This document shows, one piece after another, positions 13,003 through 56,207 of a DNA stretch of 64,000 nt. The translations under genes were made by a program, and so were the position numbers. The notes under the pieces were generated by a model. The model was not told the DNA's origin and did no database searches. It saw nothing but the letters and a program-made list of their open reading frames with translations. Each line of letters begins with the position of its first letter. Position 1 is the first letter of the stretch. This stretch comes from Muribaculaceae bacterium (GTDB lineage: Bacteria > Bacteroidota > Bacteroidia > Bacteroidales > Muribaculaceae), in NCBI GenBank assembly GCA_017619935.1, contig JAFZRJ010000037.1:1-64000 (forward strand), written 5' to 3'.

Positions 13003-13770
13003 TCAGTGTATAACCGACATACCACCATCAATAATAAGAGATGCGCCAGTAATGAAAGAGGATGCGTCTGAAAGTAGAAAGGCCAACGGCCGAGCCACCT
13101 CTTCAGGTTCTCCATAACGCTTTAGCAGGTAATGAGTGTCAATGTCCCGCTGAAAATCCGTTTCATCCAGTGCACCATCGGGCGTTGTCATGGGAGTATG
13201 TATCATTCCCGGACAGACGGCATTGACACGGATTTTTCGACTTGCGAAATCCACTGCACACGACTTTGCAAAAGCGTTGATTGCGACCTTTGACATATCG
13301 TAAATGGAATTACCTGTGACATGGGTAGTTACACCGCCGATTGAAGATGTGAATACGTAAGATGCCCCTTTATTCAGTTTCTTTTTCTTGAAAAGATTCT
13401 TCGCTAACATCACATGGGAGTAAAGATTGACATTCATTGTCTCTGCCAAATCATGCTCATTAATAAATTTGATGGGAGTGAACTTCGATAAAATGCCGGC
13501 ATTACTTACTACACCATCAAGCGAATCGACTTGTTCTACCAGTTTTTGTATTTCCTCATTAATTGAAATATCTGCTATAATCATTTGATGAATTTGGCCT
13601 TGAGATGTATCAAGCTCATTCAAGACTTCATTTAAACGGATTTCATTGCGTGCTGAGATAATCACATTTGCACCAAGAAGCGCACATTCAATGGCTGTCG
13701 CACGCCCGATGCCCGACGAAGCGCCAGTAACGAGAACCGTCTTATCTTTCAGTGAAAAGGGATTATACAT
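13003..13770 (-). CDS. SDR-family oxidoreductase (FabG-like ketoreductase)
   Basis: 255 residues. Classical SDR: NAD(P) loop TGASSGIG at residues 15-22, SNAG motif, a Ser in TSSIGG, catalytic YDMSK, and a C-terminal ITGASLIIDGGMS. It sits between two KAS III genes, so reduction of a 3-oxoacyl-ACP to the 3-hydroxyacyl form is the likely reaction. Spacing to neighbours is 20 bp downstream and 6 bp upstream, consistent with one transcript. Confidence 0.85.
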   Translation of the reverse strand: MYNPFSLKDKTVLVTGASSGIGRATAIECALLGANVIISARNEIRLNEVLNELDTSQGQIHQMIIADISINEEIQKLVEQVDSLDGVVSNAGILSKFTPIKFINEHDLAETMNVNLYSHVMLAKNLFKKKKLNKGASYVFTSSIGGVTTHVTGNSIYDMSKVAINAFAKSCAVDFASRKIRVNAVCPGMIHTPMTTPDGALDETDFQRDIDTHYLLKRYGEPEEVARPLAFLLSDASSFITGASLIIDGGMSVIH

Positions 13771-42605: not shown

Positions 42606-42706
42606 TATCAAAATCCCAAATCAAGCTTCCATCATGGTATTAAAAAAACTAAAAAAGCGGCGGGTTGTGGTGTCTCGCCCAACGGAAAGCATTATTTTTG
42701 TCACCA

Positions 42707-44302
42707 ATGAACTCCCGACGGTCGATGATACCATCACGAGTGGTGGCATTTCTGCTCATTTTCATGATGAGCGCAGCCCTCTCGACGACCACCGCTGCAA
42801 TTCGCATTCTTGAGGATGTGGACAGTGATGGTCGTGTCGATGTCTGCGATCTGAACGCCGTGATCAACGTCATCCTCAACTTGACCCAAGACCCCGTGAC
42901 CATTGCCCAAGCCAACGTCACCGGCGACCAGCAAGTGGATGTTGAGGACGTGAACGCCGTCATCAACTCCATTCTCACAGGTGATCACCATGAATTGCGT
43001 ACGGGGTATGATTATGTGTGGAACTACCAAACTTTGCCCGAGATTCACATAGACGTGACCGTCGATGAATGGGACAAACTGCTGGACTACTACGATGCCG
43101 ACCGGCTGACCAAAGAATACATCTCGGTAGATGTCACATATATTACCGGCAACGACACCACCATCATTACCGACGTTGGGCTGCGTATGCGTGGCAACAG
43201 TTCGCGGCGCAGACCCGAAGGAGTGACCGGCGAACACCACATGACCGGTTACACGGTTTGGCACCCCACCGGATTCGGACTCAATTTCAGAAAATACCAC
43301 AAAGACGAGCAGCACACTTTGCAAGGCATCAGAAAAATCAACTTGAGATATTTCTATCACGACCCGACGTATGTGCGAGAGCTGTTCTGCTACCGTCTCC
43401 TCAGCGACTTCGGAGTGTGGACAGCACCGCGCGACACCTATTGCCGGCTGTGGATTCACGTGCTAGGCGACACTTGGCCAGCCTATTACGGGGTTTATAC
43501 TATGGTGGAGCCCTTCGATGAAGAGTATCTAAAAGACCGCGAAGACCTTTTCGGGTCATCCGACGGATATTTGTGGAAATGCGGAAAAGGTGAAGCGAGC
43601 CTCACCAATGTGAGCGACCAAAATATCGGCATCGACAAAGATGAACTGCCTTACGTGCTGAAGACCCGCATCAACGAATTCACACGTGCCAAGGAACAAT
43701 TCATGGACCTCGTGAATCACATCAACACACCGTCTGATGAGGATTTTGCCGAATGGATATCCACGGTGTGCGACGTGCCATTTCTCTTGCGCTCCTACGC
43801 CGTGGTGGTGGCGGTGGGCAGTTGGGACGATTACTGGAACACCTCCAACAATTATTACCTCTACTTCACCACGACCAACCCCAGCCAATACAAATTCTTT
43901 TTCATTCCATACGATTTGGACAATACGTTGGGCTCTTCACGACACGCTTATGGCATTATCGACTCAGGCCGACAAGACCCGCTCCACTGGGGAAGAGATG
44001 AACACAACCCGCTCATCGCACGGATTCTCAAAATAGCCCCTTATCGCCAACTTTACATCGATTATCTCAAGCAACTGGTGAACGCCGACCATGGGTTAAT
44101 GCACTTCAATGCCAGCACACAACGCATCAAGGCCTGGCATGAGATCATAGCGCCTTATGTTCCCAGCGTGGTGGACCGAGACAACATCCTTGCCGACTTA
44201 CCGTCGAAACTTGGCAACATGCCGCTCTACCGCTTGCTGGAAGATGATGAGCAGTGGAATTTTTTCCGCGTACGGGCGGCAGTGATTGACTCCATCCCCT
44301 AA
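42707..44302 (+). CDS. Secreted CotH-kinase-family protein with N-terminal dockerin
   Basis: 531 residues from the ATG at 42707 (MNSRRSMIPSRVVAFLLIFM, signal peptide). A dockerin-like domain comes right after the signal (DVDSDGRVDVCDLNAVINVI, then QQVDVEDVNAVINSI). The rest is a CotH kinase-like domain: IHIDVTVDEWDKLL, LRMRGNSSR, and the FFIPYDLDNTLGSS active-site block. CotH proteins are atypical kinases that phosphorylate secreted proteins; Bacteroidetes homologues are untested as far as I know. Ser/Thr phosphorylation of a surface partner is possible. Mfd follows 38 bp downstream on the same strand. Confidence 0.85.
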   Translation: MNSRRSMIPSRVVAFLLIFMMSAALSTTTAAIRILEDVDSDGRVDVCDLNAVINVILNLTQDPVTIAQANVTGDQQVDVEDVNAVINSILTGDHHELRTGYDYVWNYQTLPEIHIDVTVDEWDKLLDYYDADRLTKEYISVDVTYITGNDTTIITDVGLRMRGNSSRRRPEGVTGEHHMTGYTVWHPTGFGLNFRKYHKDEQHTLQGIRKINLRYFYHDPTYVRELFCYRLLSDFGVWTAPRDTYCRLWIHVLGDTWPAYYGVYTMVEPFDEEYLKDREDLFGSSDGYLWKCGKGEASLTNVSDQNIGIDKDELPYVLKTRINEFTRAKEQFMDLVNHINTPSDEDFAEWISTVCDVPFLLRSYAVVVAVGSWDDYWNTSNNYYLYFTTTNPSQYKFFFIPYDLDNTLGSSRHAYGIIDSGRQDPLHWGRDEHNPLIARILKIAPYRQLYIDYLKQLVNADHGLMHFNASTQRIKAWHEIIAPYVPSVVDRDNILADLPSKLGNMPLYRLLEDDEQWNFFRVRAAVIDSIP

Positions 44303-47691: not shown

Positions 47692-47921
47692 CCACCACTC
47701 AAACATAAAAACAACGTTCATCTATCATCTGTAAAAAACACGCAATTCAGATGATGGCGCTATTACCACGACTATACACCTCCCCATGATTGCCATGGAA
47801 CTATTCATGGAATCACTTTGCTAGTGGCACGATTTCTCCAGTGTCCCTTTTTAACACCTTCTTTTTAAGATAGATTTTTTAATTGCCATATCTTTGCTTT
47901 ATCAATCTTAATCATCTTATT
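47692..47921 (+). promoter_or_regulatory. Intergenic region with recombinase promoter
   Basis: TATCTTTG at 47889-47896 gives a predicted start near 47903 and a short leader of about 19 nt before the ATG at 47922. A small stem (CCATG/CATGG) is present near 47790-47815. No inverted repeat like that at 52816 is found here. Confidence 0.5.
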
Positions 47922-48920
47922 ATGCTGACCTTAAAAATAGAATTGTCTTTCAACGAAACCAACAATCATGCTCTACCTGTTTCCATTCGTATTAATGGAG
48001 CCACTATCCCAATACCTTCACTTACAGAGCCAACTTTAGCGCAACCATCTTTCACTGCTTTTATGAATGGCATTATCTCCTCCATGAGGAATATTGGCCA
48101 AATCAGAACTAGCGAAACCTATCAATCCGCTCTCAACAGTTTCCTAAAATTTCATCAAAACGACATTGCCATCAATGAAATCACGCCAGAAATCATGAAA
48201 CATTATGAACGTTACTTGCTAGAGCATGGTTTGGCAATGAATACAATCTCTTTTTATATGCGCATACTAAGAGCATCTTACAATCGCGCAGTAGAACGTG
48301 AAATAATTATTGATAAACGACCATTCAAACATGTTTATACGGGCATTCCGCTCACGCGTAAGCGTTGTTTGGATATACAAGCCATCAAAGCCATCAAGAA
48401 TTATCAATGTAATGACTGGCGCATGAGACTATCTAGAGATTTATTCATGTTCAGTTTTTACACACATGGAATGTCATTCATCGATATGGCCTATCTCCAT
48501 TCCAACGCCGTTAAAGAGAATATGCTCAAATATCAAAGGCGCAAAACAGGGCAAGTTATCACCATTCGGTGGGAAGAATGTATGCAAGACATTGTCAGTC
48601 GTTACAAACCTAACTATCCTTATCTGTTGCCCATCATTCAGCATAAAAATGGGGAAGAACGAAATCAATACCGCACTTTCCAAAGGATGGTTAACGCATG
48701 TCTCAAAGACATTGGAAAAGACTTGAATCTTCACATTAACCTCACGATGTATGTTGCACGTCATTCTTGGGCGAACATAGCCTACGATATGGGCTCACCT
48801 ATTGAGGCAATTAGTCAAGGAATGGGACACAGCAATGAGAGAACCACTAAAATATACTTGAAGACGCTTGCTCAGAATCAAGTCGACGACATCAACAAAA
48901 GCATCATTAAAGCAGTATAG
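47922..48920 (+). CDS. Tyrosine recombinase (SAM-like, candidate promoter invertase) with Arg-I changed to His
   Basis: 332 residues from the ATG at 47922. N-terminal SAM-like core-binding domain (YQSALNSFLKFHQND), then a catalytic domain with Lys in RRKTGQ, Arg in VARHSWAN, His in MGHSNERTT and nucleophile Tyr in KIYLKTL. The first catalytic Arg, which sits in a TRGMSF-type motif in related Bacteroidales enzymes as I recall them, reads THGMSF (codon CAT). Related recombinases flip promoters of surface genes located nearby. The perfect 19-bp inverted repeats at 52816 and 53050 are about 4 kb away, beyond one large surface-protein gene. Whether this enzyme is active needs the His question settled. 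Confidence 0.85.
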   Translation: MLTLKIELSFNETNNHALPVSIRINGATIPIPSLTEPTLAQPSFTAFMNGIISSMRNIGQIRTSETYQSALNSFLKFHQNDIAINEITPEIMKHYERYLLEHGLAMNTISFYMRILRASYNRAVEREIIIDKRPFKHVYTGIPLTRKRCLDIQAIKAIKNYQCNDWRMRLSRDLFMFSFYTHGMSFIDMAYLHSNAVKENMLKYQRRKTGQVITIRWEECMQDIVSRYKPNYPYLLPIIQHKNGEERNQYRTFQRMVNACLKDIGKDLNLHINLTMYVARHSWANIAYDMGSPIEAISQGMGHSNERTTKIYLKTLAQNQVDDINKSIIKAV

Positions 48921-48943: not shown

Positions 48944-48980
48944 AAAAAACTAGGTTACTCTCGCAAGCAACCTAGTTTTT
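48944..48980. terminator. Bidirectional terminator between recombinase and surface protein
   Basis: AAAAACTAGGTT (48945-48956) pairs perfectly with AACCTAGTTTTT (48969-48980). The A/T ends serve both converging genes. Confidence 0.9.
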
Positions 48981-49008: not shown

Positions 49009-52000
49009 TTATCGTTGGGTGATAACACGTTTCACGCCATCAATGATGTAAACGCCAGCAGGCAAACTTTCAATTGAGTTTCTAATGCGACGACCATCAA
49101 TCGTATAAATGCCTTTGCGAACCACATCTTCAACTCGGATATCATGTACACCAGTGACGACATCTTGACCGTGAATGAGAGGCCTATCGGTCAAGTTTTC
49201 AACGTAATAACGGAATCCCAACATTTCAGTATCTTCATCAACACAATCCAATCTATTTTGTGAAATGTAAATATAGCTTCCAGCTGGAACTTTCTCGTTG
49301 ACGCTTCCTTCCAAATATACTTGCGAACCATGAACCTTAACCATGCCTTCATCGGTATCATTAATACCCGACGCACGTTTAGGAGCACCTTGAGAATTAC
49401 TTCTCAACAACAACTCCTTAACTTGCAGTGGTTGTTCACCAACGCTACGCAGATAAGTCACACCTGGAATAAAATAAACTGGACCATTTATGGTGTTTCC
49501 ATCAAGTGCAGCATATTGCTCTCCGGCTTCCATATCAGGCTCTTTATACGGCATGATGAGATAATACTCTCCCGCTTCAATGGCCACCTCATTATCCATG
49601 TCTCCACGTACTGGGTCATAAACCATCACAGTACTTACATCCTTGTAATTATAGATTTCCGAAGGTTTTGCCAGTTCCACTTTGTTACCAAAAGCATTAC
49701 GCAATTGCAACCAAGTGAGACTTACTGGTAATACGATATTATTCCACTGGCCTAATTCAAACGAGCGGTGAAGTGCCAAATTGCCGTCAGGATAGTCCTG
49801 TGGTTTTTGCAACACCGTAGCCTCCTCATCAAGTGTATATTCATCAACACAAGAGTCGTCATCGCGGCAATCGGGAATTCCGTCACGATCATAATCATCA
49901 CGAATAAATACACCGTAGTATTTTTGATCCACGTTCAGCACATTGGCGATACTAGCGATGGTGATACGAATCTCATCGTAGTTGGTTGTGGGGTTCATGA
50001 AGATGAAACTCTTGTCGCCATAGCCAATCGCATTGACGCCCAGCACGCTCCAGTCACTCTGGCTTTGCTGTTCCACACCATTGAGATAGGTCTTAATAGT
50101 CACCCAACTGCCGGCCTCTATTCCAGCCAAATAAGTCCTTTCATCCACAATAATTCCCACCTGTTGACTAGGTGTATAGACACGTCCTAAATCAATGGCT
50201 ATCACCACGCCATTACCCACTGAAACTGTGTTAGTAATGCTCACCCCAGTGTCAATGTCATCATCCACCAAATAGGTTAGATTATCAATAACATTTGCCA
50301 CATTGACAGCTCCGGCAAACTGAATTTCCGAACTATTGAGAGTTGCCCCTGTGCTGGGTGAAAGCAGTGTGCCGTCACATCCTAGAGGGTCAATACAGGT
50401 ATTCACTTCTTCACCATCGGCCACTACTTCGTCAAAAGCATAGTAAATGTTAAATCGGTCTATTGACAAATCCAACACACCACTCTTCCACAGAACAAAT
50501 TCATCAAATTCGACATCGGCAGGAACAGTAACAGCAAAACGCATTTTTTGCAATTTATTGTTGCCTATTAGTTTCAATTTCACCGCATTATTCTCACTGA
50601 TGAGCTGGCTACTTGTCTGCGTGCCATTTTTATAAGTACGGATATTGAACAAATCAATGGCATCCAAGCTTAAGCCCAGCGATTTGGTCTCAACCACAAA
50701 CCCAATGCGATGCGCTTTGACTCCGTCACTAATATTGCCAGTAGTCTTTTTCACGCCGACAATAGGCAAGTTTTCAACTACAGTACCATTGAGTGAATTA
50801 TTATAGGTGGCATAGTCTTCTAGCGAGACATTGAGAACATTCTCACTATCATTTAGGTTACCATTGATATTAATCAGGGCACCTCCATCACTTACTCGCT
50901 CACTGAGTACCCATGTAGGGTTATCAATGTCGGTGTTATTGATGGGATTGTCACAAGGTGAACTTTGAAGCAAACCATAAGTAACCCTAACAATATCGCT
51001 GCAGCCGTCTGCTGCTGTCGCTTGAACGATATAATCGCCCTCAACTGTCATACCCGTGAGCAGCCCATTGGCACTTACCGTAGCATTAGCACCAGCTGGC
51101 TGAGAGTAGATGCTCCATGTTACAGGTATTCCACCTTCTGCGACAAGTTGATATTCTTCCTCGTTTGTACACAGGTTAGCATTTGCGCTCAATTTGAGGT
51201 CGCAATGATGGTCTACATCGGCTGGGTCGCTGATGAAAGCATAAAAAGCTTTTGTTCCACCAACGTCAATTGTCAAACCAGTAGGGAACGTAATACGAGC
51301 ATGCGAGAAGTCTTCTTCAGCAGTAATGGTTGCTTGTTGTTTTCCACCACTAATTAAGTTCAGACTCAACACATTAGCACTCACCGTCTCACTCTGGACT
51401 TCTGTTTGTTGATATTCATAGTAAGTGCCCCATACTGCAGAAGATTTCTCTACCCATTCACCTTTATAGAGTTTAATGACCACACTCTTGCCGACAGGCA
51501 ACTTAAGCACAGAGCCATTACCATAAACAAAACCAACGGTTGACCCTTTTTTGAATGGCATACTTTGATCAGGATCCGAGCGATTGGGAGCAGCTCCCAC
51601 GCGACAATCTAGAGCAGAGCCTATAGCCAAGACACCCCAAGCCACGCCATCAGTCAAGTCATCGTTTATCAAATCATCACCGACCCAATAACCAAGTTCA
51701 GTTCCCTGCGTCATAAGCGAATTACCACCTTGCCTTTGTTTGCTTCCTTGATCTAGACTGAACTGCATACGACCATGCTCAGCTGCATAATTCTGCATAG
51801 AAGTATCAGTAATGGTGTTCATTACATAATCACCTACAAAAGCATATTTAATCTTCGTTGAAGTAATAGCCGAAAGGTCAACACCACCACTAGGGAAAAG
51901 AGAGATTTCATCAAATTCACATGGAGCAGTAGCGCTTAATTCAATATTGACATCGGATGAACCAGGAATAGTGATCAGCGACAAACCCACGCCACCAGCA

Positions 52001-52776
52001 TTTTGACCAGCTTGAACGGGGACAGTCTGCACTAATTGGCCCTCTAAATAAAATGCAATTGCAAAAGCATTGACAACATCCAAATCAAGCAAGCTGGCGC
52101 CCGAACCTGCCACCAATGTGAAACCAGCTGTTGTTCCAGTGGCATAGTGATTTTTCGTGTCACGCACACTGGTGATAGGCGCTACGCCCACCGTGGCATC
52201 AACGATTTTTGGGAAAGTGGCATAGTTATTCAGGTCTTCATCCACCAAATTGTTCAAATCAGAAATCCAACTACCAACGCCCACCACATTGATGAGTTTG
52301 TTCACCATACAGTGGCGACCGGTGAGGGCTTTTCGATTAGAAATATAGTTAGATGCATTAGCATTATTTTGTTGCCACACAGGTTTGCCATTTTCCGAAA
52401 CGATTGGTTCTGTCCAAGTCCCAGTCATGCCATTATTCCATCCCAACACTAAAGTACAACGTTCATGGTCCAAAGCATCATCGAACTGATACCTGTTCCA
52501 CTCCGCGTCCCAGGTTGGCAAGTTTTGGTAATTGGGATTCATTCGCACCAAAATGATATGGTTTTTTTCACCATTATCAAATTTAATTAGGGTCCCTTCT
52601 GGAACACCTTCCAACCACTCTCCGTCTTGTCCATCAGCCCATGCCCATGCATACCACGCTGGGTTGTCAGCATTGCAGGCTGTAGGATCAACGAAAAATG
52701 TTGCATTCACCTTTGATGTCATACTCACAGCCACAATAACAGCCATAAACACGACAAATCTGAAAATTTTCATCAT
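49009..52776 (-). CDS. Large secreted surface protein with C-terminal sorting-like tail
   Basis: 1255 residues (1254 from the second ATG). Signal peptide MKIFRFVVFMAVIVAVSMTS. The body repeats beta-rich modules, each built around a V-x-V-G...KTTG or YAFVG/YYAFDE phrase (for example near residues 200-330, 660-790 and 860-980), with an Ig-like segment (LSANANLCTNEEEYQLVAEG) and one Asp-rich DYDRDGIPDCRDDDSC loop. The last 45 residues (GIYTIDGRRI, then LPAGVYIIDG) match the type-A C-terminal signal of the type IX secretion system as I know it. It is probably an adhesin. No promoter is visible between its start and the inverted repeat at 52816, so in this orientation it is likely silent. Confidence 0.75.
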   Translation of the reverse strand: MMKIFRFVVFMAVIVAVSMTSKVNATFFVDPTACNADNPAWYAWAWADGQDGEWLEGVPEGTLIKFDNGEKNHIILVRMNPNYQNLPTWDAEWNRYQFDDALDHERCTLVLGWNNGMTGTWTEPIVSENGKPVWQQNNANASNYISNRKALTGRHCMVNKLINVVGVGSWISDLNNLVDEDLNNYATFPKIVDATVGVAPITSVRDTKNHYATGTTAGFTLVAGSGASLLDLDVVNAFAIAFYLEGQLVQTVPVQAGQNAGGVGLSLITIPGSSDVNIELSATAPCEFDEISLFPSGGVDLSAITSTKIKYAFVGDYVMNTITDTSMQNYAAEHGRMQFSLDQGSKQRQGGNSLMTQGTELGYWVGDDLINDDLTDGVAWGVLAIGSALDCRVGAAPNRSDPDQSMPFKKGSTVGFVYGNGSVLKLPVGKSVVIKLYKGEWVEKSSAVWGTYYEYQQTEVQSETVSANVLSLNLISGGKQQATITAEEDFSHARITFPTGLTIDVGGTKAFYAFISDPADVDHHCDLKLSANANLCTNEEEYQLVAEGGIPVTWSIYSQPAGANATVSANGLLTGMTVEGDYIVQATAADGCSDIVRVTYGLLQSSPCDNPINNTDIDNPTWVLSERVSDGGALININGNLNDSENVLNVSLEDYATYNNSLNGTVVENLPIVGVKKTTGNISDGVKAHRIGFVVETKSLGLSLDAIDLFNIRTYKNGTQTSSQLISENNAVKLKLIGNNKLQKMRFAVTVPADVEFDEFVLWKSGVLDLSIDRFNIYYAFDEVVADGEEVNTCIDPLGCDGTLLSPSTGATLNSSEIQFAGAVNVANVIDNLTYLVDDDIDTGVSITNTVSVGNGVVIAIDLGRVYTPSQQVGIIVDERTYLAGIEAGSWVTIKTYLNGVEQQSQSDWSVLGVNAIGYGDKSFIFMNPTTNYDEIRITIASIANVLNVDQKYYGVFIRDDYDRDGIPDCRDDDSCVDEYTLDEEATVLQKPQDYPDGNLALHRSFELGQWNNIVLPVSLTWLQLRNAFGNKVELAKPSEIYNYKDVSTVMVYDPVRGDMDNEVAIEAGEYYLIMPYKEPDMEAGEQYAALDGNTINGPVYFIPGVTYLRSVGEQPLQVKELLLRSNSQGAPKRASGINDTDEGMVKVHGSQVYLEGSVNEKVPAGSYIYISQNRLDCVDEDTEMLGFRYYVENLTDRPLIHGQDVVTGVHDIRVEDVVRKGIYTIDGRRIRNSIESLPAGVYIIDGVKRVITQR

Positions 52777-52815
52777 AACAATTTATTATTAGTTTTTAAG
52801 TTATTATTTCTTTCC

Positions 52816-53068
52816 ATCTCTTGGTAGGAGAGCGTGCGTTGTGATGCACTCAATCGTTTTTTGTAAACGTAAATCAAACAGGATTTAACTACTCTCTTTT
52901 TTATATTGTTAGTCCTAATCGAGTTATAATATTTTCATTATTATCATTGAGATTTACATATTTAACTTGTTAAAAAACACTAAATAACGAGTGGTTTGTT
53001 ATTGTTTCGCCTTGATTACATACGTTTTTTATAATTTTGCACGATAATTCGCTCTCCTACCAAGAGAT
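52816..53068. repeat. Invertible promoter segment with perfect 19-bp inverted repeats
   Basis: Left repeat ATCTCTTGGTAGGAGAGCG (52816-52834) and its exact reverse complement (53050-53068) bound 215 bp of AT-rich DNA without a gene. Near the right end TAATTTTG (53032-53039) is a -7 box pointing right, with TTG at 53012-53014 (17 bp spacing). The predicted start lies at the edge of the right repeat. No minus-strand TAnnTTTG is present inside. After inversion the same promoter would point left and start about 60 nt before the ATG at 52776. This is the standard plan of Bacteroidales phase-variable promoters. Confidence 0.85.
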
Positions 53069-53144
53069 ACGCACAAAAGCCTTTTTGGTTTCGGTTTTCC
53101 AGATCGCTCAGCCTATCTAGAACATTTAGAATTCTTTTATTTCG

Positions 53145-53176
53145 TTTGCATTTGTTGAAAATAATTTATAATTTTG
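53145..53176 (+). promoter_or_regulatory. Fixed promoter of the LRR surface gene
   Basis: TTTG (53145-53148), 20 bp, then TAATTTTG (53169-53176), outside the invertible segment. The 14-mer TTTATAATTTTGCA at 53165-53178 is identical to that at 53028-53041 inside the segment. Confidence 0.7.
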
Positions 53177-53216
53177 CATCGCTGCAAATACTTTCACTTC
53201 ATAAATGACACAAACG

Positions 53217-56207
53217 ATGAAAAAATTTCTACTCCTTCTCTTTGCACTGGCTCTGCTAGTACCTGTAGCGATGGCGAGCACGTTTTCCGTGACCAACTAC
53301 CTAAACACGTTCACCATCACCCGCTCGGACGCCTCCACTGCCGAGGTGGTCATGTACCGCACCGTGAACCGTTCGGCCATTGCGCGTACCCACTTCTCAC
53401 CTACTGCCGGCGTTCTGCAGTTTGACGTGGGCGAAACATCAAAGACGGTAACCGTCGAAGAATTGGACGTCAACACCATTCCGGCCTTCTGCTGCTTTCA
53501 AAGCGGATACGAGCGCAAATACCGATTTGAGGTCATCGACAGGGGGGGATTCCTCCTTGCTGCTCGTGACAGGGACATCTATTACGGCTCCGACTATCGT
53601 TGCCAGAACTACTATGTAAGCACTAGCATCAAAGACCTTGTTTTTCTTCGTCAAGTCGATGAGACCTATTACACGTGCCACATCATGTCGGGGATGCAAT
53701 CCACCGATTACACCGACGTGCTTGTGCCTGGCACATATTATCATCCTTTCACGGTTTATGACAGCGAAACCTATCAAACGCCCTTTACCGTTTCGACCGA
53801 CAACTTGTTTGTGGGCAGCACCAATCCCGAGGGCTTGAGAGAGTATTATACCCAAATCCGCAACACGATGTATGCCACTGTTTATTTCTTTCATGACGAA
53901 TTGGCCTACGGCGGATACCAATACATACAGATTCTCGCCGACAATGAAACAACCTACGACGGCAAGGATCCCGATGGAAAAGTCAATACGCCTTCGAATT
54001 CGGTTTACAAGGCTTGTTTCGAACTTCGGGATGAAGGGAATGGAACGGGAACTAAAGTAAAATATCAGTTCTTCCCGCACCGATACGACTACTATAACCA
54101 AGCCGAGGGCAATCAGTCGGAGATACACACCGAGTTCCCCATGTCTACCAGCAGGTTTTATGATCAGAAGTTCAAGAACTCCAGCTATCGGGCGGCCGAA
54201 GCAGGGGCAATCGTTCTCGACCCTTCGGTCAGAACGCTCACCATGCGGTTCGATGCCAACGGTAAAGGGGCCGACACTTGGGATTTCCAAAACATGTATG
54301 CACGACTCGCTTTGTGCGATGACAGGGCACCGATGATGCAAAACATACGGGTTTCTGAAGGTCCTTTCCTCAGGGGAACCCCATTCGCCGTAACTGTCAT
54401 CTTCAACGAGATTGTGGATGCACGTAATGTGGTACTGCGCACCAACTGGGGAAACCTCACTTGCACGCAGGACAACAACAACTGGACTAATGCCGTCACC
54501 TTCACAGGCAATGTTGCCGATAATGTTGCCAATAACTCCACGCTCTACATCAGCGGCTATGACGGCACCATCAAGGATCAGGCCGGAAACGAGTTTATAG
54601 AACGTATAAACAACACCTTCAGTTCTTACACCGTGGGACAGAGCTATAACTACAGCATCACCTACGACCTGGACGGTGGTACTCCCGCTGGATATTACCC
54701 GCCATACTACACTTATGATACGAACACCTTCACGCTCGCTAACCCCGTGCGAGAGGGCTACACCTTCCTGGGGTGGACCGGAAGCAACGGCGACACGCCA
54801 CAAACTAACGTCACCATCACACGTGGTTCGCACGGTGACCTGTATTTCATCGCTAACTGGGCTTTGAACCACACCATCACACTGCCCAGCGAGACCCCGC
54901 ACGGCACCGTCACCTGCGACAAGACAACTGCCTCCGTGAGCGAAACCGTGACACTTACCGCCATGGCTGACGCTGGCTATGCCCTAGGCACACTCTCCGT
55001 GACGAACGGAGACTCGCCAATCGCCACCTCTGCGGGCGAGAGCGGCACCTACACTTTCGAGATGCCCGATGACGATGTCACTGTCTCCGCAGAGTTCGGT
55101 TTGCCCATCGACTCCATCAACTTCCCCGATGCGAAATTCCGAAACTATCTGCTGTCGCAATCCTACGGCAGCGACGGCGTGCTCACCGACGGGGAAATTG
55201 CTGGCATCACTCAGATATATGTCGCATATAAGAGTATTGCCGACCTGACGGGTATTGAACATTTCACCGCCTTGAAGCGGCTTTATTGCAATCACAACCA
55301 GCTGACCATGCTTGACGTGAGCCACAATACCGCCTTGGAAAGGCTTGACTGCTACTATAACGAACTGACCTCGCTTGACGTGAGCCAGAACACCGCATTA
55401 ACAACGCTTGAGTGCTACGGCAACCAAATCACCTCGCTTGATGTGAGCCACAACACCGCATTGACAATGCTTCAGTGCTACAACAACCAGCTTGGCACAC
55501 TCAACTTGAGCAACAACTCCGCTTTGATTGCACTTGACTGCGGCGGCAACCAGCTCACCGCACTTGACGTGAGCCACAACACTGCCTTGGAAGAGCTTCA
55601 TTGTTACTACAACCAGCTGACAGTACTTGACGTGAGCCACAACACTGCCTTGGAAATGTTTCAATGTTGCTACAACCAGCTGACGGCACTTGACGTGAGC
55701 CAGAATACCGCATTGACATATCTTGACTGCGGCGGCAACCAGCTCACCGCCCTTGACGTGAGCCACAACACTGCCTTGAATACGCTTGGCTGCTACAACA
55801 ATCAAATCTATGGCGAGAACATGGCGGCGTTGGTAGGAAGTCTGCCTACTGTGGATGTTGAGAATAATTATGGTCAAAACGGAGGATTCTATGTCATCGA
55901 CCTGGATTCCGAAACCGAGCAGAACGTCATCACCACCACGCAGGTGACAACGGCGCGAGGCAAGAACTGGAAGGTGCTTGGCTATATTAATGGTTTGTGG
56001 GAGGAATACGACGGCAGCGAGCCGACCATCCCTGGCGACCTGAACGGTGACGGCACGGTGGATATAACCGACGTGAACATCTGCATCAACATCATTCTGG
56101 AACGAAACAATGATCCAGCAGTGAGAATACTAGCCGACCTGTCAGGCGACGGCACGGTGGATATCACTGACGTCAACGCCATCATCAACATCATCCTGAC
56201 CAATTAA
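53217..56207 (+). CDS. Large secreted LRR surface protein with InlB-type repeat and dockerin
   Basis: 996 residues from the ATG at 53217 (MKKFLLLLFALALLVPVAMA, signal peptide); an ATG at 53205 only adds MTQT. Residues about 20-480 are beta-rich and unrecognised. An InlB B-repeat-like module follows (REGYTFLGWTGSNGD), then a TLTA-type Ig-like segment. Eight 21-residue leucine-rich units built on LDVSHNTAL...NQLT lie at 55311-55814. The C-terminus is a dockerin-like pair (DLNGDGTVDITDVNICINII, DLSGDGTVDITDVNAIINII) ending LTN. Divergent from the 49009 gene across the invertible segment and probably an alternative adhesin. Confidence 0.85.
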   Translation: MKKFLLLLFALALLVPVAMASTFSVTNYLNTFTITRSDASTAEVVMYRTVNRSAIARTHFSPTAGVLQFDVGETSKTVTVEELDVNTIPAFCCFQSGYERKYRFEVIDRGGFLLAARDRDIYYGSDYRCQNYYVSTSIKDLVFLRQVDETYYTCHIMSGMQSTDYTDVLVPGTYYHPFTVYDSETYQTPFTVSTDNLFVGSTNPEGLREYYTQIRNTMYATVYFFHDELAYGGYQYIQILADNETTYDGKDPDGKVNTPSNSVYKACFELRDEGNGTGTKVKYQFFPHRYDYYNQAEGNQSEIHTEFPMSTSRFYDQKFKNSSYRAAEAGAIVLDPSVRTLTMRFDANGKGADTWDFQNMYARLALCDDRAPMMQNIRVSEGPFLRGTPFAVTVIFNEIVDARNVVLRTNWGNLTCTQDNNNWTNAVTFTGNVADNVANNSTLYISGYDGTIKDQAGNEFIERINNTFSSYTVGQSYNYSITYDLDGGTPAGYYPPYYTYDTNTFTLANPVREGYTFLGWTGSNGDTPQTNVTITRGSHGDLYFIANWALNHTITLPSETPHGTVTCDKTTASVSETVTLTAMADAGYALGTLSVTNGDSPIATSAGESGTYTFEMPDDDVTVSAEFGLPIDSINFPDAKFRNYLLSQSYGSDGVLTDGEIAGITQIYVAYKSIADLTGIEHFTALKRLYCNHNQLTMLDVSHNTALERLDCYYNELTSLDVSQNTALTTLECYGNQITSLDVSHNTALTMLQCYNNQLGTLNLSNNSALIALDCGGNQLTALDVSHNTALEELHCYYNQLTVLDVSHNTALEMFQCCYNQLTALDVSQNTALTYLDCGGNQLTALDVSHNTALNTLGCYNNQIYGENMAALVGSLPTVDVENNYGQNGGFYVIDLDSETEQNVITTTQVTTARGKNWKVLGYINGLWEEYDGSEPTIPGDLNGDGTVDITDVNICINIILERNNDPAVRILADLSGDGTVDITDVNAIINIILTN
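55311..55814 (+). repeat. 63-bp leucine-rich coding repeats, eight units
   Basis: Eight consecutive 21-residue units share LDVSxNTAL (one reads LNLSNNSAL) and a NQLT or NQIT turn. The DNA of several units is near identical (for example CTTGACGTGAGCCACAACAC), so recombination between units can change repeat number in frame. Confidence 0.9.

Follow-up and report, generated by a model that had tools for sequence, protein, structure and literature searches.

A likely promoter inverton upstream of a 1255-residue protein gene, and its candidate tyrosine recombinase, in a Muribaculaceae bacterium

In gut Bacteroidales, surface proteins, polysaccharides and restriction-modification systems are all known to be affected by DNA inversions (PMC12632263, PMC4747536). 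In the parts of those reports drawn on here, Mpi of Bacteroides fragilis is a serine recombinase that acts on 13 regions (PMC4747536) and controls the cell surface by promoter inversion (PMC4747536, PMC12632263). A tyrosine invertase of the same species, BF2766 (Tsr19), serves one local promoter, IVp-I, and one distant promoter, IVp-II, and the orientation of IVp-II does not affect the neighbouring groES/EL (PMC4747536). In B. thetaiotaomicron a single S-layer gene, BT1927, is ON or OFF under an invertible promoter (excerpts of PMC12548429). The PhaseFinderDC study of human gut strains linked groups of repeats to groups of nearby invertases, with nine significant pairs (excerpts of PMC11892184).

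The DNA analysed here, referred to as the window, is a stretch of 64,000 nucleotides from a Muribaculaceae bacterium. It is likely to carry a promoter inverton of the tyrosine-recombinase type that acts as an ON/OFF switch for one gene. The features concerned are these.

47889-47896, plus strand: TATCTTTG, the likely fixed promoter motif of the recombinase gene
47923-48920, plus strand: tyrosine recombinase gene, a likely invertase, convergent with the switched gene (open reading frame listed from a TTG at 47883)
48945-48980, no strand: short inverted repeat, a likely terminator between the two convergent genes
49009-52776, minus strand: putative switched gene, 1255 aa, with (by eye) a signal-peptide-like start and a sorting-tail-like end
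52816-52834, plus strand: left inverted repeat, which contains the putative recombination site TCTCTTGGTAGGAGA (a single mismatch to the clade core TCTCTTNNNAAGAGA)
52835-53049, no strand: putatively invertible segment, 215 bp, 73% A+T
53032-53039, plus strand: -7 promoter motif TAATTTTG, pointing away from the 52776 gene, with 10 nt between it and the right arm
53050-53068, minus strand: right inverted repeat, the same site as the left in opposite orientation
53169-53176, plus strand: TAATTTTG outside the segment, the likely promoter motif of the LRR gene itself
53205-56207, plus strand: neighbouring LRR gene, likely ATG at 53217, with InlB-type repeats, Calx-beta and a C-terminal type I dockerin

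How does this locus compare with the described systems? The likeness to BF2766/Tsr19 is one of description: across the window and its clade there is a tyrosine recombinase with a putative promoter inversion, one target that is local and one that would be distant, and a neighbour expected to be unaffected. However, Tsr19 acts on an extracellular polysaccharide operon and a lipoprotein cluster, as far as the source was drawn on (PMC4747536), whereas the window has one switched gene without a known family. BT1927 is alike in layout, with one surface-protein gene and one promoter between invertible repeats, but it encodes an S-layer protein (PMC12548429, in part) and the protein switched here has no Pfam family. 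BT1927 and IVp-II are the closest functional parallels, the former being one S-layer gene under an invertible promoter and the latter leaving its other neighbour unaffected by orientation. The PhaseFinderDC groups resemble the clade described below in that a type of repeat goes with a type of nearby invertase (PMC11892184, in part). Mpi shares promoter inversion at the cell surface, but it is of the serine type and has 13 regions (PMC4747536, in part) against one site pair in the window. An Mpi-type inverton was set aside, as no serine recombinase gene (PF00239) was found in the window's own genome, which is 66% complete. The kind of switch is already well known and this example of it is new; no published account of it was found among the matches listed in open-licence full texts on inversion or invertons. 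It would extend the proven promoter switches of Bacteroides to an uncharacterised lineage.

The first-pass annotation had described the segment as perfect 19-bp repeats around 215 bp with one outward promoter motif directed toward the LRR gene. This description is accurate, coordinates included. The segment is intergenic, and the TAATTTTG at 53032-53039 is the sole TAnnTTTG inside it. It is clear that perfect 19-bp arms exceed chance. They are the longest perfect inverted repeat in the window when arms lie 60-1200 bp apart, and nothing above 16 bp arose either in 60 replicas from a first-order Markov model or in 20 A+T-rich ones. At up to 3 mismatches the arm occurs 2 times in the window versus 0 times in 100 shuffles. 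The genome (1.86 Mb, 38 contigs) holds elsewhere one further match within 3 mismatches of the arm, an unpaired site with all 3, and 5 further one-mismatch matches to TCTCTTNNNAGGAGA, each single on its contig. The only site pair in the genome is that of the window.

In the proposed mechanism, the product of 47923-48920 would recognise the two TCTCTTGGTAGGAGA sites and flip the 215-bp segment. As sequenced, the promoter at 53032-53039 is directed away from the 1255-aa gene, which would be OFF. After inversion, transcription would start about 60 nt before the ATG of that gene. This distance had been proposed before and it agrees with the layout, in which the leader would span 10 nt up to the arm, the 19-nt arm itself and the 39 nt that separate the left arm from the gene start.

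Is the gene silent at present? The first-pass annotation held that it should be until inversion, on the grounds that no TAnnTTTG lies on its strand before the left repeat or inside the segment. The absence itself is real, and no exact TAnnTTTG was found on the minus strand from 52776 to 55802. However, this is weak evidence of silence because 15 of 25 genes picked in the window also have no exact TAnnTTTG within 150 nt of their start, the other 10 having one. What stands in favour of silence is that the motif of the segment points away, and the present orientation is most likely, if not certainly, OFF for the 1255-aa gene. The protein encoded by this gene matched neither a Pfam nor an NCBIfam family, and for that reason a surface location can only be presumed. 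A PDB profile search with it gave one match (E 0.012), which was set aside.

One aspect of the earlier proposal lacks support, and this is the role given to the LRR gene. It was claimed that one flip exchanges two adhesins, with a single invertible promoter driving either the LRR gene or the 1255-aa gene. A milder version can be conceived, in which a basal promoter serves the LRR gene and the present orientation just raises its level. The segment promoter is indeed directed at the LRR gene. No terminator-like site was found between the two, so read-through is possible and the LRR gene may gain extra transcription from the segment promoter as it now lies. However, a second TAATTTTG at 53169-53176, missed in the first-pass annotation, starts 48 nt before the LRR ATG at 53217 and is preceded, 20 nt upstream, by a TTTG. 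Among the 9 fetched homologues of the N-terminal part of the LRR protein, 7 have a TAnnTTTG in the corresponding place, 45-79 nt before the ATG. A promoter of its own is therefore most likely for the LRR gene. In a two-gene exchange each flanking gene depends on the invertible promoter, and that is not what is seen here. Two further observations argue against exchange. A homologous switch in another genome (G035, see below) has a different neighbour, also with its own motif, and in B. fragilis the orientation of IVp-II is without influence on groES/EL in the part of the report concerned (PMC4747536). Exchange in either form is unlikely. The likely separate promoter of the LRR gene and the different neighbour in G035 instead make an ON/OFF switch for one gene the most likely function of the window's inverton. 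The LRR gene would then be expressed from a fixed promoter in both states, perhaps more strongly now by read-through. There is a caution here: even if a promoter faces another gene while it is in its OFF position, it is not necessarily the promoter of that gene. The type I dockerin at the C-terminus of the LRR protein (53205-56207) also occurs at the CotH-kinase gene of the window (42665-44302), and dockerin-bearing proteins are found elsewhere in the genome too.

The nearest homologue of the 52776 gene, with 81% identity, is in G035. Just before its start, a perfect 20-bp repeat encloses 181 bp, in which a TAATTTTG sits about 10 nt from the far arm and points away from the gene. This is the OFF layout of the window and appears to be a homologous switch. 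Its left site, TCTCTTCGTAAGAGT, has one mismatch to the core and its right site has 3. Beyond it is a GDSL-lipase-like gene with its own TAATTTTG. Since the neighbours differ, the feature common to the two loci is the switched gene. The integrase of G035 is the sister of the window's (100/98) and is on another contig beside unrelated genes, and no repeat was found beside it. Therefore, if it serves the G035 switch it would have to act in trans. The interiors of the two segments are not more similar than shuffles in either direction.

When 16 loci with a gene of this family were examined, that of the window included, the switch was seen in two only, the window and G035. In seven of the other 14, a sense TAnnTTTG lies no more than 150 nt from the start, a count that leaves out the L076 motif; L078, with less than 200 bp upstream, is too short to show an inverton. 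Repeats near the homologues in L079 and L080 were set aside as they have no TAnnTTTG inside, and so was one in L076, where the TAnnTTTG is about 140 nt from the arm. The interiors of the L076 and L079 repeats are not A+T-rich, which was counted against an inverton. A perfect 24-bp repeat further along the window's contig (L099:494-1018, about 90.5-91.0 kb) surrounds an IS200-like (Y1_Tnp) transposase gene; it was also rejected and is probably a REP-type element, not an inverton.

Because the window and G035 switches are both OFF, neither shows a flip. What if the segment is a frozen relic, with its repeats kept and inversion lost? The shared OFF state would fit, as would the finding of no inverted copy of the window segment in the genome and viral contigs scanned. 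The exact arm was not found there either, in a scan from which records of the same species were possibly left out. When the DNA of 52700-53240 was compared with 101 genomes of the genus, only short matches were obtained, in 6 others, and these sit at the start of the switched gene or in the LRR promoter region. However, the 19-bp arms are free of mismatches, the reading frame of the recombinase is uninterrupted and the enzyme retains the residues that its clade conserves. A relic is therefore a very improbable explanation, and a segment that still inverts is preferred.

Which enzyme would invert it? The tyrosine recombinase that had been placed just past the silent gene is present, in an open reading frame of 47883-48920 with a likely ATG at 47923. 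It has the domains PF13102 (Phage_int_SAM_5) and PF00589 (Phage_integrase). R185, K221, R293, H316 and Y325 are invariant across 12 aligned recombinase rows, and we take its catalytic residues to be among these. It is the likely cognate recombinase of the segment. The gene is one of four PF00589 genes in the genome, which at 66% completeness may lack a further recombinase gene. A true inverton flipped by a different recombinase would be in keeping with this incompleteness and with the three other PF00589 genes. It would also fit the position of the window's integrase, which is 4 kb away and convergent when many of its relatives are directly beside repeats. However, the window site agrees with the core of the sites that accompany relatives of this integrase, and the sister integrase is present in G035, the other genome with this switch. 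Two of the three other PF00589 frames are 305 and 314 aa, presumably the usual size of XerC and XerD. A different recombinase is accordingly improbable, and the product of 47923-48920 remains the candidate of choice.

The site core comes from the relatives of this integrase. A scan of genome contigs with alignment A1 gave 585 loci, the best 80 of which were considered, several being from the same-genus genomes already included. An inverted repeat of score at least 16 is present in 45 of these best 80, some of which are no invertons, against 0, 1 and 0 of 80 in three mononucleotide shuffles. In 39 of the best 80 the 700 bp that follow the integrase contain a repeat of score at least 13; among the 41 other loci, some end at a contig edge. 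The arms of these 39 match TCTCTTNNNAAGAGA exactly in 19 cases and with one mismatch in 14, so that 33 of 39 (24 of 30 distinct arms) are within one mismatch. The window arm also has one mismatch to this 15-bp core, and only 7 of 400,000 random 19-mers of local composition are as good or better. As in the window, an outward TAnnTTTG lies within 25 nt of the arm in 31 of the 39 repeats; 8 have none. These motifs point to the integrase side in 27 cases and the other way in 4, that is, mostly away from the downstream operon. The downstream genes are of several kinds. At six loci (L129, L131, L145, L152, L156 and L167), ten proteins encoded downstream of an integrase-linked inverton match anti-phage defence models. 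They include a type IIG-like methylase/nuclease, an HKD and Snf2 helicase with a type III restriction enzyme, DrmD, DndC with DndD/PbeC, and a cytosine methylase. FHA, TonB receptor and AraC-type HTH genes are downstream at other loci.

Comparison within the genus supports the view that segments of this type are inverted by recombinases of this clade. An integrase 40-53% identical to the window's is encoded in 12 other genomes among the 101 searched. Eight of the 12 fetched regions have a longer related repeat, TGTAACTCTTGCGGAGAGTTACA and variants, with 3 mismatches to TCTCTTNNNAAGAGA. Its arms enclose 562-838 bp in front of a gene for a lipoprotein-like product of 943-1035 aa; no such inverton was found in the other four (L086, L091, L096 and L097). 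The arm-proximal motif points toward the lipoprotein-like gene in L087, L088, L090 and L094 and away from it in L089, L092, L093 and L095, with L087 and L094 also carrying a motif on the other strand. All 28 pairwise scores between the interiors are higher in the orientation predicted by this grouping. The clearest pair is L088/L089 (76% identity flipped versus 55% not), and several of the other pairwise differences are small. Both orientations are thus seen among the eight related invertons, whereas the window segment is known in one orientation only. It is these opposite orientations that suggest inversion by recombinases of the clade, and by extension the window's own segment may flip. The gene order of inverton, surface gene and integrase, as in L088, is that of the window, where the integrase is convergent. 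The lipoproteins that adjoin these invertons carry DUF4988 in the two tested. Inside the segment there is a gene for a small secreted DUF1573 protein (L088:14370-14786 and L089:5587-6003, the two tested), and similar open reading frames are present in L087, L090, L092, L093 and L094. As this gene lies within the segment in L088 and L089, it would flip together with the promoter.

Perhaps these loci are variations of one theme. We tentatively entertain a portable and widespread Bacteroidales module, an integrase with a TCTCTTNNNAAGAGA-type inverton, placed before quite different genes, local in the window lineage, working in trans in G035 and giving an asymmetric two-state surface. Its targets would include a giant surface protein without a family, large lipoproteins elsewhere in the genus, where a DUF1573 gene is invertible too, and, in other families, operons for anti-phage defence. 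This joint reading is possible, if somewhat doubtful as a whole. If it is true, the window would alternate between a state with the 1255-aa gene OFF and the LRR gene raised and one with the 1255-aa gene ON and the LRR gene basal. The analysis names a likely enzyme, one target and a site core of 15 bp, each of which can be tested. Together with the recombinase clade, the core offers a way to locate such switches where a genome comes without read data. One further arrangement was seen in L097. Immediately upstream of a gene for a relative of the integrase, an imperfect 30-bp inverted repeat (13461-13620) encloses an A+T-rich stretch of 100 bp with a single TAnnTTTG. The motif points away from that integrase, which may itself be switched.
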